This document shows, piece after piece, positions 3,282 through 34,700 of a stretch of DNA of 64,000 nucleotides (position 1 is the first letter of the stretch; each line of letters opens with the position of its first letter). Source of the stretch: Owenia fusiformis (Eukaryota > Annelida > Polychaeta > Sabellida > Oweniidae). Below the pieces are notes generated by a model. The model saw only the letters and a list, made by a program, of their open reading frames with translations. It did not search any database and was not told the DNA's origin. The stretch is from positions 16,930,348 through 16,994,347 of the forward strand of contig CAIIXF020000006.1 of the NCBI GenBank assembly GCA_903813345.2, written 5' to 3'. Made by a program: the position numbers and the translations under genes.

Positions 3282-6200
3282 TCAGACTATAATAGCCTTG
3301 GACGTTATGCTTGCCTTGCGACGTTTCCTCCCTCTCTTGGTGGGGCTCATATCTTGCGATTGGCTGTTGCTGATCTCAAACTCCTCCTACATAAGAAATC
3401 GATGTAAAATACTGAAATTGTTTTAACTGCAGCAATTGATTCTTTCTATTTGTTGCCATCTCAATATCGGTGCCTCTTTTGGAATATAAGGAGGACAAAG
3501 TTACCTAAATAGCATTAGTTCGATTCAGTTTCATCAACACTAAAACAGGTGCATGGTCAAGTCAGGTATATAGTAGAAGCATACAGAAAGGAGGAGGAGG
3601 AATCATTTATTCCTTTTAAGGGATTAACTGTGTGTCAATACGCAACATATTGATGCAAGAAAAATTAAAAAAGCAAGGATGGAAGGGGTTGAAAATCAGG
3701 AAAACATTTCAGAGAAAACATGTGGGTGGGTTGTTTGCATCTACCCTGTCTCAAAGTCGAAATTATTTTATCATCTCTAGAACAGATTTTCCTGGAGGTA
3801 ATGCATTCGCCTAACATATGCACCTTTTTAAATCCCCAGGAAATGGCCAAACTCAAACATATGACTGTCCAAAATCTGTTGCGCTAACTTCCCTCCTCCT
3901 TTACCCAAATTTGATAGAAATTAATTCAGTCTTTTTTAAGTTATTGTATATAATCTAAATTGTTCAGTAAATACAATTTTATGTATAATATGGGTGTTAA
4001 TGGTACATTAAATTAGAAATCAGTATTAATCTAAAATTATCTAGGTGAAATTGTTAATCTTACCCCCTCAATGGTTGACACGGTTCTCTTTCTTTTCCCA
4101 GCAGATTTCTTTTCTGGACCATCTCCCTTCTCTGTCACCTGAAACAGTTTTCAATACATACATGTTCTGTATAGTATTCTTACAAATACTACACAGTACC
4201 TCTCAATAATCTCCAGGGGAAGATGATAAGTTCCAGTTAAAGGCCCCGTGAAAAGTTTGAAAAGCTTTGTTTAACCACCCAAATATTATTTGTCATGACA
4301 TGAAATGACTAAATGAGTAAATACATAATTGATGTATAATAGTAATACTAAGGTAAACATTCCCCTGCCGGGTGCTTATATATTGTACATTTCGGGGGAG
4401 CAGCATATTGCCCCAGTTAGCTGGATCGCACACACTCATGCAGGTAGGTTTGGTATCTCCCTAAGATTTATGTTGTTTACACCACAACAGTGCCAGGATA
4501 AATGAAAATTATAGTAATGGTTTTTGCCATCAGGGCATTTAAACAAGTACATGTAATTTATGAGAGAAAAGACATTTGATTTTACAAATTGCTTTGAGTA
4601 GGTAATTAGCTAGATCTAGGTCACAGTAGTATAGGTACCTGTACCATGTCTTCACATGACTGTATTGCACTGAAGCCTATTGAAATGAACACCTTTATAA
4701 TAAAGGGAACACAAGGCATTAACATGCAAAATGTCACCACATGCAATTTAATTTGTTACATATACCAGATACCAGAAATGACCGCAAAACACCATTCACA
4801 AAAAAAGTTGGAGACTATTACAATATATATGTCAACACTTCTGATGGTGACATTATTTCCATTTCTATTTCTGGACATCCCATTATATATTATCTGAAGC
4901 TGTTAATGTGAAGTTTTGAACATCTCTCAATATGAACAATTACTAGAGCAAGTTCCAGCAGTGTTCACTTTAGACAGGTTTTACTGTTCATAATTATTTT
5001 ACTGCTTGTAATCTCAACTGAAAATGAAAACTTACTTGAGGTATATCACACTCATCTTTATAGTGGTCTTTTCATTTACAATATCAAAGTGGCTATTTGC
5101 TGACAAAACATCAAATGTATATAAATCAACTGAACATAATCATATGACACAGGATAACAGTCTGATTGACAGAGCTATTTTAAGTAAGGCTAAAATGTAC
5201 CAGAAGACATGGGAAACTAGCACAAATGTTGAAACAGCTGTTATATGTGGAAGTGATGACAACACTTCACTTTCAGGTTATGAAGAAGATGACCGTGACA
5301 ATGACTTGATCATGTACAGTGAATGTGGAAAATGTGGAAGTGGAACCCTCATTGCAGTATTATCTAGAGCATGCCACGAGAGCAAGGTGTATCATACAAA
5401 ATACACAATCCCGTTACCTGAAGATGATGTGCTGTCTACAGTTGAGCTCAAGTTAAATTATGTCAGGGAAACAATCTTAAAGAAAACAAGACCTTATATT
5501 TTCACTGGGCATTCATCTTTTATAGATTTCAAAGAAATCGGGCTACAACAGCCCATTTATATCGACCTAGTTCGTGATCCAGTCAATAGATGGATATCAC
5601 TGTTCTACTACATGCAACAAAGTAACCATCACAAGGGGCAATATCCTAAATCGGTGGATTATTGTATTAAGCTTTGGATAACAGAAACCTGGTGTTATAG
5701 ATCAAAAGACATTGTCAAATGCTTACAAAATAGTCCATTTAAAGGATGCAAATATGGAATGGTTACTCCAGCCTATAAACGCTGGTTCACTGGGAGGTAC
5801 ACTAACTCAACTACATGGTCAATAGCAAGAGCAAAACATAATATAGAACGTTATTATAAGTTCATTGGCCTTACTGAACATTTTAATGATACCTTAAAAG
5901 GACTTGAAATAATTATTCCACGTTTTAAACAAGGAATTCTCACAGACGTGTATAGAAATACAACGAATAAAAATGTAGGTCATCACAACCCCAATCCCAG
6001 AAATTCAACATTGGTGTTAATGAAAAAGTTATTAGTTGATGATTATGATATATATGAGTTCATACGTCAACGATTTTACATTCAATTAAAATGTTTAGGA
6101 ATCAGATGATTAAAATTACATATCATTTCTGAACTATTAAGCCAGACTGACATGAAATAGAAATGAAAGTTCTGTTTTTAATTTTAATTTTGAAAGTCCA

Positions 6201-9200
6201 ATTCTATGGAATTGTAAATGCAGACAGAAATAAAAGGCAAGAAATTGATTGGAAATTAACTAAATTAATTGGAAACCATGTCCAATGACATTGAGCAAGC
6301 GACAGCCGACAGATAAAGCAAATTAAAACATGTATCTTTCTCTGCCATCTTGAAAAATGCCAATCAGTCAGGTACATGTATGTGATTTTGAAAACCAGTG
6401 AGACCTCGGGATTTACTTTTATTTGCCAATGGATAAGGAGACCATTGTGTGGATTAAGGAATTGAGCAATTTTGGTAAACCTAGCACAAAATAAATGATA
6501 TGTAATATAATATAAGCTTACCTGGTGCTGTTGTTCATCTTGAAGGATCTCTTTGGTAGATTTCTTTTTATGGCCTGACAATGTAATCCCTTCAGTCCTG
6601 GTTGCTAGACTTACAATCTTAAATAAAACATCAAAGAGATATAAACACTCGTTGAATTCTTCCAAATTGTCATTCAATGTTTCTCAAAGGATGAGGTCAG
6701 GTTTAAATCTTTTTGAATGAGAAATATATTTTAGACAAGGCGTCAACATGCAAAATGTCACCTGCCATTCATTACAGATGCCAAACTCCAAACGCTGCTT
6801 TTCCAAATGCCAACCGCCATACACAATCCACAGAAAAGTTGGAGACTATCACAAAATGTCACCACTTGTAGTGGTGACATCCAAAATAAGTAGGGCCCAT
6901 GCATTTACAGTAACTCATAAAAAAACTAAAGGAGCACAAATATGACTTTACACGTGTATCTGATGCTTCACAGTGACATAATTCTTACATCATCAACTGT
7001 TGCTTTCCCTTTAGATTTCTCATTAGTATTTCCTTTCTTGATTGTTTGTTGATTTTCTGGCTCAGGTTGGGCCTCAGGCTCCACTCTCTGTTGGTTCACT
7101 GAAGATTTGTTGAAGTATTTGGGTAGACCTTCCTTCAGAATCTTGTCTCTATTAACTATCTTACCCAGTCTTTAATATAAATAATTGCACATAACAATAC
7201 CACTATGCTTCAGATCAATTAAAAATAAACTATATGTAGATCTAGTTTATATAATTTAAAATAAGGTGAAATAGTGGAATAGGTAAGGAAAAGTGACCAC
7301 TCCTTAAAGAGAAGCATTTCCTAATCGATTAAGAAATTTTGGAGACTTTAGATGATAGTTTAGCTTTATGCAGTGCAGTATGTATTTTTATCAGTTCATA
7401 TATTCTATCTTTGTTTTAATGAAATTTTTTGAAGACATGAAAGTCAACAAATCCATTTCAATATACCGTTTTCCTTTGGTGGGATTCTTGATAAATCCTT
7501 CCTTTTCCAATCTGTTCAGTAATCCTGTAGCAACAGTCATTTCAACACCAAGTCTACGGGCAAAGCTTGGCTGCAATACACGGGACATCTCTGTACATGC
7601 CATCAGGGCTCGTCTCCATAAGCACATTGCCTGTAATAAATTACTGATGTTTTAGAAAGTCATTTCAACACCAAGTCTACGGGCAAAGCATGGCTGCAAT
7701 ACACGGGACATCTCTGTACATGCCATCAAGGCTCGTCTCCATAAGCACATTGCCTGTAATAAATATAAATAAAGAATAACAAATGTTTTAGAAAAAGTCA
7801 TTTCAACACCAAGTCTACGGGCAAAGCTTGGCTGCAATACACGGGAAGTTTGTTAGTGGAAGTTTGTAATATTTTCAATAACCAGCATCCAAGAGCTTAC
7901 CTGAACTCCTAAAGAGGATAGGCCACTAAGTTTTATATCTGTTGGTTGTAAGTCTGCATCATTTGGCTGCAAATATAATATAAAGTACAATAATACAGGC
8001 AGATAAAAGTTTGTCAAATGGTATCTCTTTATGTGTTCATGAAACAATTTTTTGATCAACTAAAATCAAAAAGTTTAATTTCCCTAAAAGACCATGAATT
8101 AAAGGTACATTGTATTCAGTAAATAGGTAGGGTAAAGAGTTTCTCAAAGTCGTTTAATCTTGTCCAAGTAGCAATATTTTGTTATTTCTATCGCTCAGAA
8201 TTCCTTTAACTTACAATCCAAAAGTTGACAAATATGTTTGCCCTTTCCTGATTGTGAATGAACATTGTTAACTTGTTTTGTATTTTGCCCTCCATTACAA
8301 AGGTTTAGATTTATCAAAATAAACAATTATATAATAAAAATAAAAAACCTTACATCAGCACATGAGTTGCAGATATGTCTTTCTGGAGCATCTTCTTCTA
8401 ATGTGATGAGGAAACAAACTCCATGTTGCCAATAGTGACAGACTGCACAGAGAATCATCAGACCATCATCCTATAACAGAGGTACATCTGGGTGTATATT
8501 TCAGATTGTTTTTCTATCAGTGATATCATTGGCATTCAATAGAAGCCCATGGTGATATTTACTTTAATTCACAGAAACTAGATGGGGAGGGAGGCTTTTC
8601 ATAGCATTTTCTCATTTTCAAAATATGTTGCTTATTGTTTCTGAATTTGAACACATATTCAGTAGACGAATAGTCTGTCCTAAACTTCATAAAATATGCA
8701 AAGCTTATTCCCATTGCATGTGTTATACATTCTGAACATTTATGCAGAATCATTTAATTGCTATGCATTTTTAGGAAGAACGTATCTGCACAAATATATG
8801 CTGACCTCATTGCATCCACAGGGACATTGTACACCAAGGTCTTCCGTTAAGTCTTCGTTGTAATCCTGGGAACCTGTCGTGTCTACAGCTTGGTCAGTTG
8901 AACCTTAAAACATAGGAAACAACAGTGTGCATTCATATCAGAAAATACATGCACTATGCAGTCTCAATTTAATTTTTTGCATTTTTTTTCAAATGAACAT
9001 CTAATCATTCAGAATTGTATTATTTGACCTAAAATGTAATTTGATGATGCTGAGTAAACTTGTAATCCTTGTGTTTAAATGTACTAAGTATTAAAATTAT
9101 GCTTAAACATTTTTTAAATGCAATTTCATATTCTGAACACAAATATCTCTGCTACTCTCATATCTCCCCAAACAAGCAGCAGTCAGGATTTTCCAATATC

Positions 9201-12200
9201 ATGATATCTCCTGGCTATTATATGTGAACCCATAAGACAAACACTGACTAATTAGTTGGCCCGGCTTTCACAAGAATTAGTTGCCCTCACCTTCACAAAA
9301 TAACTATGAATATACCTGGTAGTTGGGCAGATGTATGGAGCCCTGAATCAGCTCTTGCTGGGGTGGCTCGTCTTTGACTGAGTTTTGTGTCGCCAAGTTT
9401 CACAATCTTCTTCCCCTCTGGTGTAATGCTGGGTACCTTGGTAAGAAAAGTTATCAAGAATTTTTTGCAATGTTAGTAGTTTTTGCAAATGTCATAAAGA
9501 ATTAGCCATTGTACTTGCCTAATATGGAGAGATTTTTATTTTGCTTCAGGCAAAATCATGATCTTTAAAAACATTCAGATTGTTACTATTTTAGACCATT
9601 TTAACTTCAGGTCTTATTATTTTAAATTGAAAGTATGTTACAGACAAGAAGCTAAGATATGGTTTGTCGTGAAAAAGGAGCTCATATACCTGAGATTAAA
9701 ATGAAGGTTTGCCATAGAAGTTTAGATCTTAGAGTTTGAAATGAAGGTGTTCAAGACAAGAATACTAAATCTTGTAGAAATGAGATTTGCCACAGATATG
9801 ATCATCTATGATACCTGTTGTTCATTGTCTTGGTCCATAGGAGACCCTGACACAGGACTTGGGCCCTCTTCTGGAGAATTTCCTAGTGTTGGCTCAGCAC
9901 CAACAGAGGGCTCTGGTGGTTGCTGGGCAATAGTTTCAACAACAACATCTTGGTTTGCTGGTTCAGTTTTTTCTCCAACATCCTTGGTTTGTTCACTTTG
10001 CTCATCTTGCATCTCAAATTGTTTCCCGTCAGTTTTGATTCTCAGTTTGACAGTGTGGAAAGGTGTATTGACATCCCCGACCTTGATGTTCATTGGTTCT
10101 TCGTCAAATCTGAAGCCATCAACGTCACATGACTGGAAACCTGGGGGTTCGTATTCAGCAGGAGTGACTGAAACATATTCACTGAATGATATAGTAAATG
10201 TTCCAACACAATAAACACATTTTTATAATTTGGAAAGACAGGTTTTGCATTTCCTATTTGCATTTTTTAAAACTAATAATTTTGCTTTCAAATGTGTGAA
10301 TGTTAAACTGACCATCATCAAAATAGAGTAGTTTCATTGACATAATGACATCATCAGGAAGAGACTTGAGGGTCTGCGTAAGCACAACTATTGTCCTCAG
10401 CAATCTGATTGTCGCCTTTTTTGTCTCAGCAGCAGAGAAAGCACTAGAGATCTTCTTGTCATTCCTGGAAAAAAGTTAACAATTACATTTTATTATTTAC
10501 ATACATGTGATTTAATTTTATTAAAGATTAGAGCATTTAAATCATAGGTGATACTTAATTAATCCATATATAACTTTAGGCCAATGACTTGTGTTTATTA
10601 GCTTACTAAAAGTGTTATTACCCTTCCCCAAATAAAATAACTTCAGCTTTAAAAATGAAACGTCTAAATATACAAGGCATTAACATGACAAAATGTCACC
10701 ACCTAGTTGCTCACAAAATTATGAGTTCAAACTTGCAGATGATTTTTTTTTAAATTGGTCAATTTGAAGTAAGTTGAAAAAAGAGCTTTTTATCTTGAGA
10801 ACGTCAGTGAAGGTCTAGTCTTAAATCTAAAAAATAATATGAGATTATAATTATATATATTAACTACAAGTTACCTAATTACAATATATGTAAAATAAAC
10901 AAATACATTTGGCTACAACCCAGTCATTCGTTTGCCGCAAAACAACAGCCTTTACCAACATATGTAATGATACTTTAGAGTAAATCGTGAAATATAAGGC
11001 GTAAATGTTAGATGTCTAATAATCGTTTTTCTAATAGCATGAAAGGTGAGCGGCCAATCATGCGATGCCATAGATAGGTAGCTGCTCTGGGCACTGTACT
11101 CCCTGTACTAATGGCTTTTGGAAGAAATTTTAGACTTGAAAAGGGGTAGCTGCTCGAGGCACTGTACTACCCGCGGGGTGATTTAAAAAGGTAGCTGCTC
11201 GAGGCACTGTACTACCTGGATGTTCAAGTACGAATATCATTTACTGTCGAACAATCAGATAAGGATGCCGTTCGTAGGCAACCTTGCATCGGTGATAACG
11301 GGATAAGATAGTGCGCTCGGACTCCTATCTTCGGATCGCAGTTATCCGGCCTGAATGCAACACGTCGTGTTGTGATACCTGAATGTTTGACGTTAGAAAG
11401 ATCAATGAGAGAAGTCAGATAGATAAATACATTGATCCTTCGATATAACTGAATTCGTGTCTTGAAGATGTAAATACGATATAATTACATTTGTAAATGA
11501 ATGTAAATGAAAGATGGCCTCAATTAATTAGGTGTTGTGGTGGGGAGGTTGGTGGTTAGCTGAAAAACTAAACAGGTGTCTTTGTGTTAGAATGTTTCCA
11601 ACACGAAGGCACCTAAACGAATGAAGGGGGCGGAGTTAGATTAACAGATATAGTTTCACTGTAAGTGTCTCACACTGACCATCGCTCGTTCTCAGCGTGG
11701 TGGGAGGAGCTAAAGTGTTGACTTTCATAAACCACAATTATTTCCATACTATGCTAATTATTTTGGAAAAAAATCAGCCAGTCTAAACAGTATTTGTTAA
11801 GTTATTGGAAGTTTTTAGAATTAAAAAACTGTGGGGGAAAATGCATTAATGAAGAAAGGAGACACATGTTTGTACTCAACAAGAAACTATAAAAGCATGC
11901 CAACAAACAAACAAACAAGAAAACAAGCAGTGAACAGTTTGTCTTTACAAGAGTCACCTGTAGATATCAACCCCACTTTGGTTATCTGTGTAGGAAAACT
12001 TGAAGGTGTATGACTCTATAACAGTCTAGAAGTAAAGCAAGGCGGAATATATTCACACATCAAAGAAATAACCATGCATCAAATCCTGTCTCTCCCCCAG
12101 AAACGCTAGCTACTTCCCAATCACATCTGTATTTGGAGGGAGGATACACAAGGGCTTGATGCAAGACTGTGAGGGAATTTAGTATAATGCAGCAAGGAGT

Positions 12201-15200
12201 AAGAACACTGTTACACATTTTGTTATATTTGACGTTGTTTGTATAAGTATCTTAGATACAGGGTGTGACATACTAGTAAGCACTGGTTTGTTCAACTTGT
12301 TCAATGATTTTAATATAGCCACTTGTTTATATAATGTATGGACGTTTTGTTAAAAGCCTTTGTGACGAAAGACTTGATGCAAGAATATTTTACAGGAAAT
12401 GTCATGATCTGTAACCATAGGCATTTCAGGATTTTGTAATTTTTAGTGCCTATACTTTAGGATTTTCATGTTTTCTAATATTGAAGTTTTGGAGGATCAT
12501 TCTGGTATTATGAATTAATTGGAAGTGCTCTAATTCAGAGATTTCAATGTGGGGAGAACACTGAATGGTATGTTAATTCAATTTGTACTGTGAAAAGACT
12601 GAATGTAGAAATATCGTAAATTGACCAAACTATGTTTACATAAAAAAAAATGTTTACATAATAATCAGGGTATTCAAATTAGAATGAAAAAGAGCCAATA
12701 TAAGTCACACAAGTAAAATGCAAGAAACTGAGCTACCAACAAACACAGGAATTGTAGCAAATGAAAATATAAAAAGCACTGGCAATTTCATTAGATAATG
12801 CACTTACATCTGGGTCATTTGGATCAACATATATCCCAACAACTAGCATTCTCAACTGAAAAATAAAAAGTATACATATATCAATTTGATAATTTGCATC
12901 TTTCCTTTTTACACTTCAACATCTTTATATTCTACTTCTATTCATGTACAAGTACATGGTGCAAGTACAGCCTAAAGAATGCCTCGGTAGGTTCCATCAA
13001 GTTGTGTAGGGCATTTTGATGCGGACATGTTGAAGATCTGATTCAATTCTGGGAAGGTCACTGAATATAAACATTGACAGAGATCCTCGACTAAAGTGGG
13101 GTACTTTTTTAACTTTTGGTATGGCAATGTACCCTAATTTTAGGATTTTAGGATCTGGTATGAGATCAATCCATAATGACGCCAATCTATAGCATATACA
13201 GTACTTACATAATGTTTGTCAAGTGCGTCGAAACACCCTTTGACCCACTTGATCACTTGGCAAGCCCCAGCACATGTACTGTCATGTCGTAGTATCTTCA
13301 GGTTTAAATCTGAAAACAACATATTTGAACAAATGTTACTCAGAGAGGATTGAGATGCTAAAATTAAGTCGACTGAATTAACAAGAAAAAATACATCTAA
13401 TTTATTCTAACCACCATTCTCTAATGGTTAATGTTAATGTACAGTGTAACAAAAATTAGAAAATTAAGAACAGATCACTTTATAGCACTGAACTACTTAA
13501 TCACAGTGAAGGCATTAAAATATTTATTTCAAAATGGCGGAACGGCATTTTGAAAGCTGACACGTGTCGTGTTGCATTCTGGGAGCCAATCCACATTGCA
13601 GCGATAATAATAATTTTTTTTATCGTATGATCTGTAAAATGAAGCCCTCTGATTGGTCAGTTCTTGTGCTGTACCAGTCTGTATTGCTACTGAGATTGTC
13701 CGCATTGATCATCTCAGTCGCAATACAGAAAAAAAAATATTGGTACGGAGGGGACATTCTCAGTAGCAATACAGAGGATCACACGATAAAAACGTTAAAG
13801 AATGATTTGAAGTGCAATACAGGATATATTCTGTCTCGATATTCTGTATTGGCACTCAACTTCATCTCGTTCCAAACTCTTTATTCGATTTTCACACTTT
13901 TGTATTTGATTACAACCATTGATATTCCACTCTATTAAAATAATTCGAAACACGTAATAAATTTGTTTGTTTTTACACATTTATATTTGATTTATGTTCC
14001 TATATATGCGGTAAATGCACTTGTATAGCCAGTTTATGTTATTCAGTGTTTGGTAAAATATCACATATTTAAGTCCATGTACACACATGAACAAAGACGG
14101 TTGACACATATATTTAGAACACGCATCAAATAAAAATACACTTTAGAACCAAACAATGTTCATTTACCGAACAATCATAGAGTACAAAATAGCAAGGACA
14201 TAAATTATAGTGACTTACCCCACATAATTAATGACATGTACTTTCGCATAAAATTATGTGGGGTAAGTCACGTGAGTGACGTACCCCACATAAATGACAC
14301 ATGCTGCATGTACGCATTAAACCATTCGGTAAATCACGTGACCAGTGACGTAGAAATTATTTCAAAATGGATGAAACAAGCGAGGAAAAAGAATTTGAAT
14401 ATGATTCATATCCACCAGGGAGGAAATTGAGAAGTTATTAGATCATTGCAACAGGCATGAGGCTACAAGCGATCCTTTCTTAATAGAAGATACGAATCAC
14501 ACCAGAACTCTTTGAATATATAGATGGCGCAAGTCACATGGTCATGTGACTTACCCCACATCAAAACAGTGAACATTGGTTTATATAACAGTGTAGACGC
14601 AATGGTTTATTAATGGATGGTCCGTCAATTGACGGATCATTGTTTCAATTTTTTTATCATCCGTTAATTAACGGATAAAGAAAACCCGTTAATTTGAATT
14701 GGAAAACGGCAAAATAAAAGACTGGGTCAGTTATTTATGTCTTGGAATTTAATTTACTGCTGTGGAGAAAAACCAATTACATCCGACGAATGTGCTGCAT
14801 ACAACGCATGTTTTCCATGTGTGCTTTTACATTTCTATGTGTGCTAAATATTTTACAGCCTGTCAAAGACAGCTCAGTCAATATGGTACAACGAAAATGG
14901 GACTTCTGCGCATGTTAAAATTTTTCGTCAAAACTCAACTTTTGTTCAAGTTGATACGATTGTCTTTCGAACTAGAGACTTACCTCATTCGAAAGATCAT
15001 AAAAGACTTTATCTATACTGAAAATCTTAGATCCAAACATAGTAGAATACGCCGTCAGTCCGCATTTGATTTTTTGAAGTGAGTTTCGTAGATCGTCAGA
15101 TTTCTCCGACTGATATCGGGTTATCTCAAACTGGTTCGTTTATAAATACCAATTTCTTTACCGTTGTAAGGCGCATGCGCAAAATTGATTTATAAACCTT

Positions 15201-18200
15201 ATTGGTTGATGGTTTTTCTTCTGCGCATGCGTGAAGTCTGATGAACACTTATGACGAAGACCGGAGCAAACATTACTAGCTCTCAAACGAAATTCCAAGA
15301 TTCAGGTCATTTCGCCGTGTTTGCTAAGCGTGTATACGTGAATGACAGGCTGTTTTGAGTAGATCGGGTACCTGTTTTAGACACAACATTGATTTAGCTT
15401 GACATTGATGTGCACATTGGCACTTTTGAGCATGTTAATACAAGTTTTTACACTCTTAGCACGAGACGGGTTTTCGGCGAAAAATCTGTTATCTGATTCA
15501 CTCGATTATCGTATGGATATGTATTTCTGCTGACATTTCAACACCACATCACATAGAATTACGATGCAGAATGATAATAAAACACAAAACAACTACTAAA
15601 TTCCACTTGTTATTTCACAGGAGGTAAAAATGCAAACTGCCTAGATTCTTTGTAAGGGTCGTCAGACATCGGATTGGCCGCCATATTTGAAATGAAAATA
15701 TCACTAAATAGAGGTCTGCGCATGCCTCAACATTTCGACTGAGCTGGTTGATTCCAGCATGAAAATCTCTTCATCATCATGCATTATTTTAGGAGTGTAA
15801 TTCAGCCATACATGTATGTCTGGCATGTACATATGTGTACGCAATAAAAATGATTCGCATGTTTATTAGTAAATAATAGTTACATTGAGTTCAGGATTCC
15901 ACGCTATAATAACTTAGAAATACAATCTTATATTTAGGCCTAGAACTTCACCGTTCATTCACGATAAAAAAGGAATATGTTACGCTCTGAGGACCAATAT
16001 GTAACATCAAAAAGATAAATAATACATATAAATATAATTAATTCTAACATTGGCGACGGCATTTAAAGCGGTCATACTCCCTATTTTAATTCCAATGCAT
16101 GTGTATTGCACCCCATCATATGTCAATATTGCCTTTAAAGTTTCTTTTTTACGATAACTTTCCGTATTTCTGTTGTAAGAAATTTGTGTCCCAAGAAAGG
16201 AATGTACTCTACGTATTAATGGACTGTCTGCCATGGATCATCGCAGAATTTTAGAATTTTCCTCATCTTAGGAAATAAAAAATTGATGTTAATTTACGGA
16301 CTGCAAAACAATCATTCCCTGACTCATTTTACATTTTCATTTTTCTATTTGTTATCTACAGACAAAGCAAGAAATGAAAAAACAAAAGCGATTACGACAT
16401 TGGTCGTTCGACAGACGATATTAAATGTAAGATCGGCTGAAACTACAGTAAATCTATTTTCAAACCTTACACCATGACAAGTGGTCAGGATGAGATCTTT
16501 TTTTGTGTGCACTTCTAGCTCACATTGGTAGTTATTATACTGCTCAGCTAACTCAAAATATACAATAAGTTCAGACGAAGCGCAGTACACAGGATAAACA
16601 CCAAAACAAACAATTTTGATAGGGAGTGAGTGGTTTAAGGTTTGCAATTAGATGTACTGTAATTTCTGGCTTTTACATCCAATATAAACCACCCTCCGAT
16701 TGTGATGCATCTATTTTAAGCTTTTACATCCAATACCTGCCCTCCTGATGGGTTGTCTTTTTTGGCAAATAATGTAACTAGTTTCATCAGATAACATGCA
16801 ATGTTCGCTTTAGAAAAATCTTTTAATATTTGCTATACATCTGGCCATAGATTTAGCCATTACTTATTGAATTGATCTATAGTTTTCTCCCGAGTTTTCT
16901 TCTGCAAATAGAAACATTAAAATTAGACCCCTTCTAAATCTTGTGGAATTACATACTTATAAAACTTACCTTGAAAGACCCCCTCTAAAGCTTCTCATTG
17001 GCTAATAAGTCTGACCTTCTGACCTAAGCCTGTATCTCATTATCATAAATTATGAATTAGACCCGTCTTCGATTATTTTATTTATCATTATTCATTTAAA
17101 ACATATATTTCTCATTAAATATAAAAACAAATTAATATAATTGTTCAAGGACATCGCAGAAGACATTGTTTGCATCATAAATTCGAAGAAAATTTTGATA
17201 TTTTTTCTTCTTCCTGTGATATTCCGTTCAATTTTGAAGTGAACTCTTATTTTAGTGGAATGCAGTCTTGAGCCGACTCATCAAATATAAATTTGATTTT
17301 ATTGTTCAAGAAAAAACGAAGACAAGAGAATTAATTCATTCAACGAGCTTTTCAATAAGTCAGATTAGAAGATTTTACTACGAAATTCACAACTCATGTT
17401 ATACTTAGAAAGTAAATTGGCAACATCTCAATTATTTCAATAGTTATAAAATTGACACTGCCTTGTGCGATTGCATTGAGAATTACTATTTTAATATAAT
17501 CTAAACTTTTCATTTTGAAGGAATTCGATAGGAACCTTTAGAAAATACATTTTACATCAACGATAAAAATAAATACGCAAATATAATGACTCCGGGACTA
17601 TGACAAATGTGGAATGAATGCATTCATAGCTAAAGTCCAATGAATAAATTTGGCATATATTTAGGTGAAAAACACTACAAAACAAGAATGAACTTTGGGT
17701 TTGTTCCCAAGCAGTAATTTCGTCTTGATACAGCGTGAATACACAAATTATACAAAATTTTATTATGGAAAGGATATATTCTAAAATGGGGTTTATAAAA
17801 TAATGATTTAAATGACCAACAAAAGACCAGGCCGGGTTAATTTCTTAAAGATCTAATAGCAAAGGTTTTGCAAAAATAAATCAATGTAGTATAAAACAAA
17901 TGTATGTATTATGAAGAAATAAATATATAATGAAAAAAATAGATATGTGTTTGTAATATTGGTATAAACTTAAGATTAAAAAGTGTCACTATCTCTTTCA
18001 TTTTTCAACAAATATAGGCTCACGTGACATGTGACGCGGGGCAGTCAATTTTGATCTATCGTAGACCATATCAGTATCAAATTACTGATTTTTCAACCTC
18101 GTCTTGCGAGGCCATTTTGATTTGAAACATCTTGAATTTGGTGTCAAAATGAAGCTGGTCACGCCCACTTTCAGAGTTATCAATGAATCATTTACTACGA

Positions 18201-20260
18201 CTACTATATTCATTTAGGAGGCGTGTAAAGTTAACCAATCAGAAAGACAATTGTTCCATATATGGCAGTTCATTAACATATTCAGTGTTTACTACTGCTT
18301 TTCACGTCATGACAACACGAGTAGTAACCAATCAAGATGCCGTATTTTATCACGTGAGTTCAGAGTGACACGCACGCGACATGTTGTCTGGGGTGATCGC
18401 GATGTTGAACAATTTCTTCTCGGAATTTGTCCAGAGAAATCAGCGATTCTAAATTAAGGTAGGATCTGCCATTTTTTCCTGTACAAGTTATAACTTATCT
18501 CTATCGAATCCTAAAGTTTTGGAAGAAGATATGAAGCGTAGGTTTAAAAACGAAGCGATTAATTTGACGATCTGATTTTGCAATTTGCAATGGCCAATTT
18601 ACTGCAAGTCCAGTGCATGTATTTGACAAGAGATAGCGCCAAGTCTGGTATCTAAATGCTTGTTAAGCCACTCAAAAACAAGATCCATATCTTCTAAATT
18701 TGATAACTTTGCAGAAAACCTGTTTTCATATTCTGTTTTCCGCGTCTAGATTCAAACTGAGTATGATAATAGGATCGCTGGAATCTTCAGTCAATGGCAA
18801 CGGGTCTTCATTCCAGAACTCACATTTTTAGTTGATTCTCCGTCATAGTTCTTGTTTAAAGTCCCCATATCTGCTCTCTTACTGCCATACTTGCACACAT
18901 TTCCCCTCCTTAAATTGTCTTCATTCAAATTACACCCTCTCGCCGATTTATATAGTCATTTCCCAGAACCCGGGAATCAGAATCGCTGATGTTTGCCATA
19001 TTGAACATATTATATGTACTGTAATATCTGTACATTGACTGCTACGCGTTATGGTCACGTGACTAGCGCGATACAGGAAAAATGGGGAATTTCGAAACAA
19101 CAATTTTTGGGCACTTTTATTGCAAATTTCAGGTATTTATAAAGTGTTTGTGGTATAAAATATAATCCACAGACATAAATGAACATCCAAACTACATATT
19201 TCATTAAGTTTTGGAGCCTTTTTTGCTCTTAAATCAACATCTTTAAACAAGTGAATCGTCTTCCCAGGATCGTCTTATTCCAGTCAGTTAAATGTTCGTG
19301 CTATTGAACAAGAAATAATCTGACATGTCTAATACTATCACTGTACAAGCTAGTAGCTGTGAAGTCCATCTCATGTACGGATGAAACATTGCAACATATT
19401 GGAGTTTAAATATTCTATACGCAACTATCTCAGTGTAACTGGTCCCTGGCCTCGGCCATGCTGGGCGATAATAAAGGACACCAAGGACACCCGTCAATTG
19501 ACGGACGATTCAGAAACTGACAGAACATGAATCAAATTACAGGTACCCGTTATTTGACGGATGAAACGTCAAACGAAGTATTTATATTGGCATGCGCATT
19601 TGGGAAATCTTTCTATGAACGGCCCATCCGTCAATTGACGGACCATCCATTAATAAACCATTGCGTCTACACTGTATAAAAGCATTTGGTAAGTCACGTG
19701 ACTTACCCCACAAATTAATATGTTTACCCAATACGAATGGTACTTAATATGTGGGATAGTAGGTACCATTTGTTGAAACTGGTTTTGTTTATGTTCGGTT
19801 TAGCTTACTCCGTGGGGTAAAAACCGAAGATATTAATGTTACGAATATTGATGCATTAAATACACTATAGCCTGTAAGCTGTAATGTTACCTTCAAGGCA
19901 GCGATCTCCAAATGCATTCTCTGGAAAGATGGCTCTGAGGTATGTTATGTTGGACACTGCAACTGCCAAGAGTTTCTTAACAAACAGTGCAGACTGTTGC
20001 TCTGTAACTGTCTCTGAGGGAAATATTGTTGACCACTGGAAGTGAAATTAGGATCATATTGGAAGAATAACACAATTGAGGGGGTGCAATAAATAGTTGT
20101 ATAGTTATATTGAGGCAATAAAGCAGTTTTGTTTTGGTATACATAATACATGCAGTGCATGTGCATGATTACTAAAATCCAAAATGTGATATTTATTGTT
20201 CGAATTACTTACTGTTCCAGTCTTCTCTTGGGGACGGGTCATTTGTTGAGTGGCTGTCAT
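3282..20260 (-). CDS. HORMAD1: HORMA domain-containing protein 1-like, complete, 16 coding exons, 645 aa
   Basis: Meiotic chromosome-axis protein that promotes double-strand breaks, synapsis and checkpoint signalling in the nucleus. Coding exons in transcript order: 20260-20213, 20035-19891, 13309-13209, 12855-12808, 12025-11958, 10464-10313, 10167-9815, 9436-9316, 8903-8806, 8470-8354, 7966-7901, 7630-7467, 7169-6989, 6617-6522, 4138-4064, 3386-3282. All boundaries are AG/GT and all phases match (1938 nt). The HORMA domain covers about residues 22-240; it contains [37 protein letters not shown] and [14 protein letters not shown], close to vertebrate HORMAD1. A PHD finger follows (C372, C374, C386, C389, H394, C397, C412, C415), then a winged-helix-like segment (about 440-510). 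The C-terminal [15 protein letters not shown] (620-634) resembles the mammalian closure motif. It is 250 aa longer than human HORMAD1 because of the PHD/winged-helix module. The start is the first ATG of the first coding exon. HORMAD1 versus HORMAD2 orthology is unresolved before the vertebrate split. A large transposon sits in intron 2 and an antisense gene in the intron 6521-4139. Confidence 0.93.
4711..4865 (+). repeat. Dispersed repeat, ACAAGGCATTAACATG family, copy 2
   Basis: It has the ACAAGGCATTAACATGCAAA start and AAAGTTGGAGACTAT internal block, and ends in GGTGACATTATTTCC. It lies 160 bases upstream of the sulfotransferase ORF, within the HORMAD1 intron. Confidence 0.7.
5024..6109 (+). 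CDS. Uronyl 2-O-sulfotransferase-like protein, intronless, 361 aa
   Basis: Predicted Golgi type II membrane enzyme of the Sulfotransfer_2 family, which moves sulfate from PAPS to C2 of uronic acids in glycosaminoglycans. A short cytoplasmic end is followed by a hydrophobic anchor (residues 7-26). The 5'-phosphosulfate-binding segment reads GKCGSGT (102-108), matching the UST form GKCGS rather than the PKTAS of heparan sulfate 2-O-sulfotransferase. FTGHSSF (160-166) places H163 at the catalytic histidine position of the family. RDPVNRW (184-190) is the 3'-phosphate-binding segment. The C-terminal third aligns by eye with UST, including [15 protein letters not shown]. Length is close to UST (about 400 aa). 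The whole frame is open without introns and lies antisense inside a HORMAD1 intron, suggesting a retrogene or one of the expanded intronless invertebrate copies. The ATG chosen gives the expected membrane anchor. Exact acceptor specificity cannot be read. Confidence 0.88.
   Translation: MKTYLRYITLIFIVVFSFTISKWLFADKTSNVYKSTEHNHMTQDNSLIDRAILSKAKMYQKTWETSTNVETAVICGSDDNTSLSGYEEDDRDNDLIMYSECGKCGSGTLIAVLSRACHESKVYHTKYTIPLPEDDVLSTVELKLNYVRETILKKTRPYIFTGHSSFIDFKEIGLQQPIYIDLVRDPVNRWISLFYYMQQSNHHKGQYPKSVDYCIKLWITETWCYRSKDIVKCLQNSPFKGCKYGMVTPAYKRWFTGRYTNSTTWSIARAKHNIERYYKFIGLTEHFNDTLKGLEIIIPRFKQGILTDVYRNTTNKNVGHHNPNPRNSTLVLMKKLLVDDYDIYEFIRQRFYIQLKCLGIR
6229..6234 (+). terminator. Possible poly(A) signal of the sulfotransferase gene
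   Basis: AATAAA lies 120 bases after the stop codon. In an AT-rich genome this hexamer is common, so support is weak. Confidence 0.35.
6735..6882 (+). repeat. Dispersed repeat, ACAAGGCATTAACATG family, copy 3
   Basis: A diverged copy (ACAAGGCGTCAACATG start, AAAGTTGGAGACTAT inside). Its end ATGTCACCACTTGTAGTGGTGACAT is a perfect-looking short inverted repeat. It lies in a HORMAD1 intron. Confidence 0.7.
7537..7850 (-). repeat. Local tandem duplication of the HORMAD1 winged-helix exon (one full and two partial copies)
   Basis: The 5' part of the functional exon 7630-7467 is repeated upstream in the same intron. A second copy spans 7753-7652 and a third, shorter one 7850-7797; the shared block starts at 7537, 7660 and 7798. 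The second copy has a strong acceptor (TTTATTACAG) and the same frame as the real exon, but after the residues RRLGVEMTF it meets TAA with no donor site. If spliced in, it would end the protein before the winged helix is complete and remove the C-terminal motif. The real exon carries the full continuation [14 protein letters not shown]. Confidence 0.88.
8354..8903 (-). other. HORMAD1: Two HORMAD1 exons that together encode a PHD finger
   Basis: Exon 8903-8806 ends with VQCPCGCNE, and exon 8470-8354 continues [19 protein letters not shown] and later ICNSC. This gives a C-x-C...C-x2-C-x4-H-x2-C...C-x2-C zinc pattern with the GLMI-C-x-x-C-x-x-WQH signature of PHD fingers. All eight ligands are present, so the domain looks functional. 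Confidence 0.88.
10672..10706 (+). repeat. Dispersed repeat, ACAAGGCATTAACATG family, truncated copy 4
   Basis: Only the 5' block (ACAAGGCATTAACATG then AAAATGTCACCACC) remains, inside a HORMAD1 intron. Confidence 0.65.
11077..11216. repeat. Three spaced copies of a 27-bp motif
   Basis: GGTAGCTGCTCGAGGCACTG followed by TACTACC occurs at 11145 and 11190, with a diverged copy at 11077. Spacings are 68 and 45 bases. The ends GGTAG/CTACC can pair. The function is unknown; it sits in a HORMAD1 intron. Confidence 0.7.
11294..11346. repeat. Imperfect hairpin
   Basis: GATAAC...GATAAGATAG pairs with CTATCTTC...GTTATC around a loop of about 13 bases. It is GC-richer than its surroundings. It may be the core of a foldback element that includes the 27-bp repeats just upstream. 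Confidence 0.5.
13527..13603 (-). promoter_or_regulatory. Inverted copy of the HORMAD1 promoter segment within intron 2
   Basis: About 75 bases here are nearly identical to the reverse complement of 21602-21677, including AACGGCATTTTGAAAGCTGA, CACGTGTCGTGTTGCATTC and TGGGAGCCAATCCAC. The copy keeps the CCCAGAATGC-type motif (13573-13584) and a CCAAT box. It could be a displaced promoter piece or two copies of the same dispersed element. Confidence 0.7.
13612..13800. mobile_element. Foldback MITE-like element
   Basis: The left arm TTTATCGTATGATCTG and the right arm end ATCACACGATAAA are inverted copies. TCTGTATTGCTACTGAGA appears on the left, with its complement twice on the right. The left arm carries about 45 extra bases. 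No coding capacity. Confidence 0.65.
14210..14271. repeat. Perfect 20-bp inverted repeat with GTGACTTACCCCACA motif
   Basis: The arms 14210-14229 and 14252-14271 are perfect complements separated by 22 bases. The motif GTGACTTACCCCACA recurs at 14557 and 19697 (and with GTGACG at 14277), on both sides of the 5.1 kb transposon. It therefore probably belongs to an older element into which that transposon inserted. Confidence 0.8.
14368..14517 (+). pseudogene. Frameshifted acidic ORF fragment, probably transposon-derived
   Basis: A frame starting [18 protein letters not shown] is interrupted by a one-base shift and continues as [19 protein letters not shown] before a stop. The acidic start resembles the N terminus of DNA-transposon proteins, but I do not recognise the family. 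It lies between the GTGACTTACCCCACA hairpin and the 5.1 kb element. Confidence 0.4.
14589..19674. mobile_element. 5.1 kb non-autonomous DNA transposon, CAGTG termini, hAT-like
   Basis: The two ends are a 49-bp perfect terminal inverted repeat beginning CAGTGTAGACGCAATGG. TATAA lies directly outside both ends (14584-14588 and 19675-19679), consistent with a 5-bp target duplication, though AT-richness weakens this. The palindrome CCGTCAATTGACGG and variants recur inside both ends (near 14621, 14650, 19491, 19545, 19627), typical of subterminal transposase-binding repeats. The 5 kb interior shows no recognisable transposase. It holds several GCGCATGC-containing pieces and, near 18040-18460, a CpG-bearing promoter-like segment (CCAAT, GTCACGTGAC-type boxes) followed by a possible donor AAG/GTAGGA. 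It fills most of HORMAD1 intron 2. Confidence 0.8.
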
Positions 20261-20622: not shown

Positions 20623-20838
20623 TAAATGACTCAGATCTGACAAAGGCATCTCATATCATAGTGCTTCAAGTTCCTGTAAATGACTCAGATCTGACATAAG
20701 AATCTCATATCATAGTGCTTCAAGTTCCTGTAAATGACTCAGATCTGACATAAGCATCTCATATCATAGTGCTACAAGTTCCTGTAAATGACTCAGATCT
20801 GACATAAGCATCTCATATCATAGTGCTTCAAGATCCTG
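20623..20838. repeat. 54-bp tandem repeat, four copies
   Basis: A unit starting AAATGACTCAGATCTGACAT occurs at 20623, 20678, 20732 and 20786 with very few differences. It lies in the HORMAD1 5' UTR intron. Confidence 0.92.
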
Positions 20839-21069
20839 TGGCCGATTCATAATCATATATGTGATTCGATCTGAACCTTGTCTTGTTTTATATTGCATTG
20901 TATAGGACAGTGTAGCATAACAAAGTGCATTGCATTTGCATTCCCACATAAAAATAAACTTACAATGAAAAATCTGTCCGTCTAGAAAATCTTCAGGGGT
21001 TAACCCATCAACCTGTCGACTGAATATTTGATAAAAATTTGGCCTATTTGTAGGATCACACAAATCCTT

Positions 21070-23805: not shown

Positions 23806-26800
23806 ATGCCGCAGCCTGATGAGCCGTACTACTGCTCACAGCAAATACAAATTCCCCCTGCTCTTCCTGACATCCTAAAACAGTTTACAAAAGCTGCCAT
23901 AAGGACACAGCCTAAAGATGTCCTCGGTTGGTCTGCAGCATACTTCAGAGCATTGGCTAATGGTGAGACACCACCAGTTAAAGAGAGACTTGAGATGCCA
24001 GTTGCAACACAAAAAACAGACACTGGTCTAACCCCAGGATTACTTAGAATTCTCAACAAACAGGTATGTAGAGGAATATTCTTGAAGTGAAGTTTAGTGC
24101 AATCTCAGCATAATTTTGTTTAGTATGTAGTTGGTAAAAAGTCATGTTTTTTATTTAAACTGTGAAATTAGAATTAATTTGAAGTAGAATTAAGGTGAAG
24201 ACCTTTTTCCATAAACTAATTAAAGCTCTTGTGAAAGTTGTACCAAAACCCCGAAAATTATCATGTACATGTGGTTTCAGCTTGGCCCCAGAAAGACAGT
24301 AGACCTAAACATAATTGAAGAGAAGTGGAAAGATCTAGCTCTACCTAAAGAACAGTTTGATGAGCTAGTGAGAATAGGTGGCTTTGGAGGAACCATCGAA
24401 TGGTTGAGATACTTTGCTCTTGGTTGCTCAGCATTAGGAGAGGTGACATATTACTGATTATTCCACAGTTAACATGATATTCATAGGATAACATGTCAAA
24501 ATAAAAACGGTATTTTTGTAATCAGTGGTAAAATATGACATTTTTGACAAATTTTCACTAAACGGTGTTTTAGCCATGACATACGGCGCCCTTTGCTATG
24601 ATTTTTGCTACTTCAGACTCAAAACAAGGCTAAGTGTCAACATCGCTGGATCGTTTGGAAAATTCGAATTAAATCACTTAATTTCCGACGATTCTGATGA
24701 TGACTTTAACTATGGAATAAAAAGAACATCCTATGATTTACTCGTGATATGATTTTAATCCACTCATGGATATTGATATCTGCACTCTCTCACTATGCTC
24801 CCTCGTGCATAGAGGTCGCAACGGTACTGAAAACCAGTACCGGTAACCGTCACGCTAATAACCGTACCGTTACCGAAATACCGGTAAAAATATGTAAGAT
24901 AAAATGCCAATGCGCTGCCACCCCCACTTTGTTCCTAATTTTCTCCGTAGCTTTATATGCATACATGGTGCAAGACCGACTTGAACCCATACTGATGAAC
25001 TTCACGAAATAGTATGTAACTATCTTACGAATCAAGATGTATTTTTAGTTTTAAATTAAATGTACACATTTCAAACCATTTCTCAACTGTATCAATAGCA
25101 AGCGACGTGCAGTATACATGGGGGTGGGGTAGGTAAAATAGATTTTAACAAAATATTATCCTGGTGTGGCGAGTTTGGCTGAAACATATCATGCTATTCC
25201 TGCGTCATCCGTGTCAAGTGAACGTCAGTTCAGTGCAGCTGGCAACACCATCACTTCCAAACGGGCACGACTTCAACCTGAGGTTGTCAATTCCTTGTTG
25301 TTCGTAAATGACTATTACAAACATAATTCAGTTTCTGGATCTGACGTTGACACTACAACTACACCGGAACTGCCAAACACAGTAACTACAACCAAATCTG
25401 AGCCTGAGCATGAAGCTACTACACCGAACTGCCAAACATGGACATCACACCTGAACTGCCAAACATGGAAATCACACCTGAACTGCCAAACATGGACATC
25501 TAAATGTCTATGTAAATGTACGCATCGTGAAAGTGGAAATTAAACGAAATATTTAAATAACCGACGTGTCTTTTATTTCCCCAAGGATTATCGTCGGTTA
25601 ACTGGTTAATAAGTTCAATACCGGTAAATGCTCAATTCCGTACCGAAACCGTATAACCGGAATTACCGTCAGCCTCTACTCGTGCAGATATATCCATTCA
25701 TATTACTCATAAATCATAGGATATCCTATATTTATAATGTTCTTCCTGAAACAACCATATTTAAGTATATCTAAACATAAAAAAAATTAAAATTGGTGAA
25801 AATATTATAAAGGTACAATCAGATCTCATACCTTTCCTAAAATTGTGTGCAATATTTCATCTCTGACTTCCAAGGTGGTTTTAACACACCGGCACCTTGG
25901 GGCCAAATGCTTATTTTTTTGTCATATTACTTTGAGGTGTGTCATGCATTAAGATTTTCACAGAACCAAAACAACAGGGAAAATTAATGGAAGAAAATCG
26001 AAAAAAATCCCAGTCCCCTGCTGCTAAAAAAAACCATGCATAGGTAGTACATGTTCCTTGCAATTGTTAACCCTTATATATCTGATTCTACCTTTAATGT
26101 GCACCATCCTCTCAAAAGGAATAAAACATGACATACTGGGCTATTCATCTTCTTATTCAGTTGAATCAGGAATTCAGGATGTAGTACTCTCTTGATGTTT
26201 CACTACTCTGTACATCTAAAGGAATTAATATTAAGAACTTGAACCATTTTTCAAATGCACCAATCGACTGCTTTTACTCTCTAAGAAGTCAATTCAGAAA
26301 TAAAAAGGATAACAAATAGTGAATATGATAGTATAAAACATGGAAAATTTCTATAGACCATTATCCACCAATAAATTATACATCAGCTCTATGTACAGCC
26401 TCATTCCATGAGTTCATTTCATAACTAAGCTGTGTGGAATGAAACAATGGTGCATGTATTCAATTAATACAAATGAATTTGGTACAATGGGTAAGAATTT
26501 GCAGGATTTCATCAACATATATTGCACAAGAGCATTCAATATATTTTAATGGTTTGAATGTGTTTTCAACTTCAGTGAATGTGAATACATGTACTAGAAT
26601 TTCTCATTGAAATGTGTTTCACTCATTTAGGCAAGCACTTGATATGCACAACTAGCCACCTAAACCTGTACAATAAAAAGCACAGCATTTTAGATTTTTA
26701 GTTATTTTTATTTATTGTAGAACATCACAGATGCCATGAAGACCGTTTGTGAGATCCTAACTGCAGATCCCGATGGTGGTCCATCCAGAATTCCATTCCC

Positions 26801-31752: not shown

Positions 31753-34700
31753 CTACATGTCCTCAACTGAGCCGTACTCATTGATAGGCTCTTCAGTTCC
31801 ATACTCATTATAACTCTGATTCTGTTCTGCATCTCCAGCTGGTTCAGCCCCCTCTTCATTATTTAATTCCTCTGCATGCTCATTCTCCTGAGGGACACCA
31901 TTGGGTTGTTCCACAGGATCACCACCATAGTGAACATCCATGTTGGGCTCAGATTTAATAACAACATTATCAAAATCAATTGGGCCATCTCCACCTTCAT
32001 TGGGGATACTCTTCTCAGCCTTTTCGCGTTCACTTTTACGGCTCTTGCGATCACGCGATCTGCTACGCTTGCGATCTCTGCTTCTACTTCTGCGACTCCT
32101 CTTGCGGTCTTTGCTTCGACTGCGTTTTCGATCACGTGACCTGCTTCTGCGAGATCGTTTTCTGTCCCGACTCCTACTGCGTCTTCGTCGTTTCTCACCC
32201 TCAACTTTGACATCGGAATCTTCTGTAAGTATGAACATATCTCAAATGAATTCAAACTAATGTATGCATCAAACATTTGTGTAACTCATAACAATGCTCA
32301 GACCAGTATGGCCAAGTTAACTTCTGCAAATTATTTGAAATGAAAATTAAACTGGACAAGGTGATAAATGTTGCACTGGAAATTCAAAGTGACCGCCTTG
32401 TTTAACCAGCATGCTCAAAACTTCAGATCTTGGATACCTCTTGCTCTTGAATCTCAAAATTTCAAGTTTAATGGATGAATGGTTTTCTTATCTTTGCTTG
32501 TAAGGGGTGGTTTGGGTCTATGATCTCCATGAAGAGATTTATTGTGCCATCTGCCCATACATCCATCACGCTGGTACTCAACTCAAATGCACTGGTCCAT
32601 TTTGGTGACAAAATATTGGAACCTCAAAGGTACGACTTTTCTTTTTTCCTTATTCCATGCGATATAGGCAGAAATCCCACAAAATTTTTATCACAAATGT
32701 GTGTCAGTATCATATGTTCAAGAAAATGTAGATGTTTGTGGAAAAATAGTTCAGAAGACAACAGAATCGTTGCTTTAATACCTCAGAACTGTTACGTAAA
32801 TGGAACGGGTTAGAAGCGCAGATCTTAACCGTTTTTCATAAGTGAGGTATTAAATCGAAGATTCTTTTGTCTTCTGAATTATTTGTTTGCAAACAAGTAA
32901 ATTTTCTTAGACATATGATACTGACACAAGTTTGTGATAAAAATGTCGTGGGAATTCTGCCTAAAACTCGTGAAATAAGTAAAAAATTCACATCTTTGAG
33001 GTACCGACATTTTGTAAGCGTAATTGGGTAGAGTAACAGTGCATCAGGACTATATATTTTGGTTTTCAAGTGTTATGTTTAAGCTGACACAAAATATAAT
33101 ACACTTAATCTTACCAAGACCAGGCTCAGTCTTGATCTGGATTCGATCTCTGCTCCTGCTACGTCGTCTGCGCTCCCTACTCCTGCTACGTCTGCGTCGA
33201 CGGTCTCGACTACGACTCCTAGACCTCCTCCTTCTACCACCTGGACTACCAGACCGACTCCTGGTGGCAAAACAAATAAACAAATTAAATACATTGTTGT
33301 AACAGGAAAATTGATGTTGCTTAGTATGGCATAAAGAATACAAGGCATTAACATACAAAATGTCACCACCATTTGTTACAGACACCAACTGCTGATTACC
33401 AACCAACCAATTTCACCATAGCCAATTCTATTTTATATTTCTCCCCAATAAAATAATGAGTCAAAAGTATGAGAAAACTTATTGATGATGGATTACCTTT
33501 CTCTAGCGTTGTCATCACGTCCGGAGAATCTTGTGTTGACATCAGCGCCACCTTTCCTTGTTCCACCCAAACCACCTCCTGCAAACAAAACCGGAATATT
33601 GCAGAATGAGGAAATAATATCCATTGAGAATAGGAGCTCTTAAACTGTACTGAGTCATTAGATAACACGAGTTTGAGTTCCCGATGTACAAATGACCACC
33701 TAATTTACTAGCACAGTGGGAATAGAACTCTTGTGAAGGCATTATTCGACCTCTATTGTAAACCAGTTGAAAAATTAAGAAAACTGGGCAGTTCTGATAT
33801 TGCAAACATGTATATATATTTTATTTACCTAGTCTCCTTGGCCTCCATCCCTTCACTGTTCGAGACCTTTCAACATCTACAAGAACTCTCCTGCCATCTA
33901 TCTTCTTTCCATCAGCATGCTTGTAGGCAGCTAAAAATAAAATAAACCATGAACAAAATTGACCAGTTATTGAAAAACTGCACTTTGAACCAGACCGCTT
34001 ATGTATACAGATCAATGGAGTGTAGGATGGTGTGGCCCATAGTACAGTTGCATTGGTAGCTCAATAAAAAGCCTGGGTTACCACCCCAAGCTAGATACAG
34101 CAACTTACATCGTCAGCTCCTTCTGCAACCATCACTTACCAGATCAATACCTGACAACCAGGGCTGATTCTCACTGACACTAGTTAGAAAATGTGACAAA
34201 TGTTGATTGTAGCCTTTCAATAGTGCTGTTCAATTATAAATTATTTTGGCGAATTTTGATTTTTCTGACCAGAGTCTGTAAAATTCAGCCCATGTCCAAC
34301 AGACATTATGGTTGATGTGCAAATAACAAATCAATAAACTACACTACAACGCAGAAAGGTTTATATCAGGTTGCCATGGTGACACAACATACTTCCTGTT
34401 CCTGTAGAAACAAGCTGCTCTCCCATCCATCTATACCTACCTATGGCAACAATATTTCATGGCAAATTTGGGTTATATTTATTAGAAGATTATATTAGAT
34501 ATGACATATTTATATAGACATTAACACAAGACAAGAATAATATAAAATGTTCCTGCAATGATGAAATCCACAGCTCAGCTACATCTTCTTTCTTCTGTAT
34601 ACCTACCCAATGGTGGAGTGGGACGAAAACAACATGAATTCAGAAAAATGCAATATCTTTCCAGTACAAAGGATAGTCCCCAAAATAAATCGAGAGGTTG

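Follow-up and report, generated by a model that had tools for sequence, protein, structure and literature searches.

The window, a 64,000-nucleotide stretch of the Owenia fusiformis genome (contig CAIIXF020000006.1), carries on its minus strand, from position 20260 to position 3282, a gene for a protein with a HORMA domain and a zinc finger module. The gene was rebuilt from the raw sequence. This gave 16 exons with an open frame of 645 aa (Table 1), in which all 15 introns follow the GT-AG rule and the phases are compatible. The length is identical to that of the 16-exon, 645-aa protein proposed in the first-pass annotation. Exons 1, 8, 14, 15 and 16 were placed by splice signals and open frame alone, and the start codon in exon 1 was likewise chosen from the sequence. 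In the predicted protein a HORMA domain is followed by an acidic linker, a complete module of a PHD finger and a winged helix-turn-helix (PHD-wHTH), and a basic tail.

Table 1. Exons of the HORMAD gene and partial copies of exon 12, in window coordinates.
Feature	Positions	Strand	Content and basis
Exon 1	20213..20260	-	ATG, residues 1-16, donor GTAAGT; start chosen from sequence alone
Exon 2	19891..20035	-	HORMA domain begins; gene model, PDB sequence and Pfam matches
Exon 3	13209..13309	-	HORMA; gene model, PDB sequence and Pfam matches
Exon 4	12808..12855	-	HORMA; gene model, PDB sequence and Pfam matches
Exon 5	11958..12025	-	HORMA; gene model, PDB sequence and Pfam matches
Exon 6	10313..10464	-	HORMA; gene model, PDB sequence and Pfam matches
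Exon 7	9815..10167	-	HORMA ends, acidic linker begins; gene model and PDB match
Exon 8	9316..9436	-	Linker; splice sites and open frame, homology not used
Exon 9	8806..8903	-	Linker and first PHD zinc ligands C372, C374; alignment to crystallised modules
Exon 10	8354..8470	-	Remaining PHD: C386, C389, H394, C397, C412, C415; pocket D379/D380, M383, W392, A406
Exon 11	7901..7966	-	Connects PHD to wHTH; alignment
Exon 12	7467..7630	-	Winged helix-turn-helix core including R479; alignment
Exon 13	6989..7169	-	Wing (K497), module end at residue 515, then tail; alignment
Exon 14	6522..6617	-	Tail; splice sites and frame alone
Exon 15	4064..4138	-	Tail; splice sites and frame alone
Exon 16	3282..3386	-	Basic C-terminus, putative closure motif, stop codon
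Partial copy of exon 12	7658..7764	-	Tandem copy of exon 12 start, splice acceptor kept, in-frame stop after 33 codons
Second partial copy of exon 12	7782..7846	-	Shorter tandem copy

About 360 bp upstream of the ATG, at 20623-20839, lies a tandem repeat with a 54-bp unit (4.0 copies, 95% matches). Intron 14 contains an uninterrupted frame on the plus strand (5012-6109; 365 codons from stop to stop, 361 aa from the ATG), which is related to heparan sulfate 2-O-sulfotransferase (E 1.6e-18; Pfam Sulfotransfer_2, E 2.9e-05). A Pfam scan of further open reading frames covered 10 of the 17 listed ORFs of at least 95 aa. One of the ten gave a match, the C-terminal dimerisation region of a hAT transposase (25142-25543, plus strand, E 4.3e-13). 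Two open frames on the minus strand (31753-32241 and 33050-33412) are rich in RS dipeptides and resemble an SR-type splicing protein; neither has a Pfam match at E up to 0.01. No tRNA was found in the window and no Rfam family matched at its gathering score.

HORMA domain and PHD finger

The protein begins with a HORMA domain of the meiotic type, as the first-pass annotation had stated. Pfam model PF02301 matches residues 31-225 (E 4.3e-61), and in a phmmer search against PDB sequences residues 12-250 match the HORMAD1 chain 8j69_A (394 aa, E 2.5e-72), which we take to be mammalian HORMAD1. The chains of Caenorhabditis elegans HIM-3, HTP-1 and HTP-2 were also matched. The similarity to 8j69_A is confined to this single stretch. 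With the PHD-wHTH segment as query, 42 distinct PDB sequences were matched at E up to 1, and 8j69 is not one of them. HORMA is thus common to both proteins, whereas no PHD-wHTH was detected in 8j69, in agreement with the earlier proposal that the module is absent from mammalian HORMAD1.

Residues 370-417 match the PHD_5 model (PF20826, E 7.4e-09, 36 bits, cut-off 27), while the generic PHD model PF00628 stays below its cut-off (21.3 versus 24 bits). The eight zinc ligands, whose identities were taken through alignment from the text of PMC12365614, are all present. They form a C-C-H-C set (C372, C374, H394 and C397) and a C-C-C-C set (C386, C389, C412 and C415), so that the complete eight-ligand finger described in the first pass stands. 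The alignment also reveals the residues of a lysine pocket: a tryptophan (W392), a residue of the M/L type (M383), a small hydrophobic residue (A406) and acidic residues (D379/D380). Pocket positions II-IV were read by alignment against the text of PMC12365614 and are not derived from a structure.

Winged helix and match to crystallised modules

The match to two crystallised modules, both named HORMA domain-containing protein in the PDB, runs from the PHD finger directly into a winged helix. Residues 370-515 match entry 9myp with 61% identity over the module (phmmer, E 6e-58), and residues 370-514 match entry 9mug with 43% identity (E 2.7e-29). From construct length and residue numbering, compared with the text of PMC12365614, we take 9myp to be the chromatin-binding region of Hop1 from the starfish Patiria miniata (XP_038051536.1) and 9mug that from the blood fluke Schistosoma mansoni. 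The alignment to 9myp contains one single-residue gap, near the wing. The same gap occurs in the alignment to 9mug, and 9mug itself has in addition a three-residue insertion between PHD and wHTH. The winged-helix segment of the earlier annotation is thereby borne out, although in Pfam only a sub-threshold MarR match was obtained (15.6 versus 24.6 bits). A structure prediction for exon 12 alone gave two helices at modest confidence (mean pLDDT 77.7, pTM 0.40) and adds little.

The alignment spans the exon junctions 9/10, 10/11, 11/12 and 12/13. As homology is continuous across these junctions, chance or mis-splicing as the origin of the module is ruled out.

The module shares its zinc ligands with both crystallised proteins. 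With the starfish protein it also has the pocket residues W, M and A in common; the fluke protein has V, not A, at pocket position III. In the starfish protein three DNA-binding arginines were mutated in the published work: R463 (here R479) and R477 (R494) are conserved, and R480 is replaced by lysine (K497); the codon of R494 is split by the junction of exons 12 and 13. The replaced residue, R480, is that of the published starfish nucleosome mutant R480A. The canonical DNA surface thus keeps its basic residues, though of the two arginines mutated in the fluke protein R389 corresponds to T474 (H in starfish), and R407, in our numbering, aligns with K493. Judged from the alignment, strict conservation does not extend to these fluke positions of the surface.

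C-terminal tail and partial copies of exon 12

Residue 515 is the last one aligned with the animal modules. The tail beyond it (residues 516-645) is basic, with 26 K+R against 19 D+E. With regard to an HTH-C extension it was compared with Pfam models and PDB sequences, and at E up to 0.1 it yielded neither a Pfam match nor a matching stretch of a PDB chain. When the last 40 aa were searched for a closure motif, the single match was a meaningless one at E 4.5, and 8j69 was not recovered. The passages of PMC6349405 that were consulted offer no closure-motif consensus.

Both partial copies of exon 12 lie in intron 11, just upstream of the exon, spaced by 123 and 138 bp, within a repeat array at 7535-7846. 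The nearer copy has two differences from exon 12 in the first 96 exon bases, after which the sequences diverge. A recent duplication within intron 11 is the simplest reading. That the copies act as a poison or alternative exon, giving a protein of about 472 aa that has HORMA and PHD but lacks a full winged helix and the C-terminus, and thereby tuning the chromatin binding of the axis, we regard as highly improbable.

Discussion

The locus very probably encodes a normal-looking animal meiotic HORMAD (HORMAD1/Hop1 family) of the holozoan PHD-wHTH type, which would work by the mechanism proposed from its relatives. By analogy with these characterised relatives, the HORMA domain would wrap closure motifs, both those of the axis core protein and those in HORMAD tails, and the protein would thus be loaded onto the axes of meiotic chromosomes. 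The PHD pocket (W392, M383, A406 and D379/D380) would contact the histone H3 tail, and the winged helix would contact DNA through R479, R494 and K497. Together these contacts would load the axis on nucleosomes, where the break-forming machinery may be recruited.

For the starfish module, PMC12365614 describes nucleosome binding in EMSA, which is lowered by each of the mutations W376A in the PHD finger and R480A in the wHTH. According to the same text, no binding to peptides of histone tails was detected, and nucleosomes with H3K4me3 were bound about as well as unmodified ones, so that the mark was not strongly preferred. For these reasons the contact with the H3 tail is, even for the relatives, in part a matter of inference. 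On balance, the Owenia module should work like the starfish one, with a canonical DNA contact of the winged helix and a contact of the PHD finger to the H3 tail.

The first-pass annotation had compared the module with that of Saccharomyces cerevisiae Hop1. The analogy holds for the architecture, as yeast Hop1 shares the HORMA and PHD-wHTH layout (PMC10907721), but probably not for the mode of binding. In yeast Hop1 an HTH-C is added, the lysine pocket is poorly conserved and DNA alone is contacted, through a non-canonical surface, as described in the texts of PMC10907721 and PMC12365614. The module might nevertheless bind nucleosomes in the yeast manner, through a DNA surface common to PHD and wHTH and without histone contact. 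The shared layout would fit this, as would the loose superposition of the fluke and yeast modules (5.3 Å over 128 residues; PMC12365614) and the absence here of some DNA-surface arginines of the animal structures. Yet W, M, A and D of the pocket and the majority of the basic residues of the starfish protein are present, and the P. miniata mutants favour the canonical surface (PMC12365614). Moreover, no yeast Hop1 chain was found among the 42 PDB sequences matched by the module, nor among the best 60 of the 95 PDB sequences that a profile built from the three animal modules matched at E up to 10, which is weak evidence as yeast Hop1 chains may be lacking from the PDB copy searched. Given the poor conservation of the pocket in yeast and the use of another DNA surface there, we consider a yeast-like mode improbable.

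The partial copies adjoining exon 12 might also suggest that transcripts skip the PHD-wHTH exons, which would then be relics in a gene for a mammal-like working protein. However, every splice site is intact, and the 61% identity to the starfish chain together with the retention of all zinc ligands suggests selection, so that the probability of such skipping appears very small indeed. Least credible, to the point of being negligible, is a decaying or chimeric gene in which separate HORMA and PHD genes were joined by chance. Nothing was found in its favour: the 645 codons contain no stop, phases are compatible throughout, and the domain order is that of published animal HORMADs (PMC10907721, PMC12365614).

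A HORMAD of the starfish type, the reading we prefer, has precedents. In a survey of 149 meiotic HORMADs (PMC10907721, 2024), PHD-wHTH without a clear HTH-C was reported for 36 from opisthokonts, including Fungi and Metazoa, and predicted structures were presented for a sea urchin, Strongylocentrotus purpuratus, and for Nematostella vectensis. According to the phylogeny in that text, the PHD finger was gained in the opisthokont ancestor and lost in Vertebrata and chromadorean nematodes. The placement of PHD-wHTH at the opisthokont root with loss in vertebrates supports the earlier suggestion that the annelid gene retains an ancestral module. Novelty of the architecture, in contrast, has to be given up: it has been published for many animals, two animal module structures have been solved, and the starfish module has been found to bind nucleosomes (PMC10907721; PMC12365614, 2025). 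The Owenia gene thus joins a group that has already been described. The questions that it raises are those already posed in PMC12365614. It provides one clean additional example of an animal PHD-wHTH HORMAD, in agreement with the published loss of the ancestral module in mammals.
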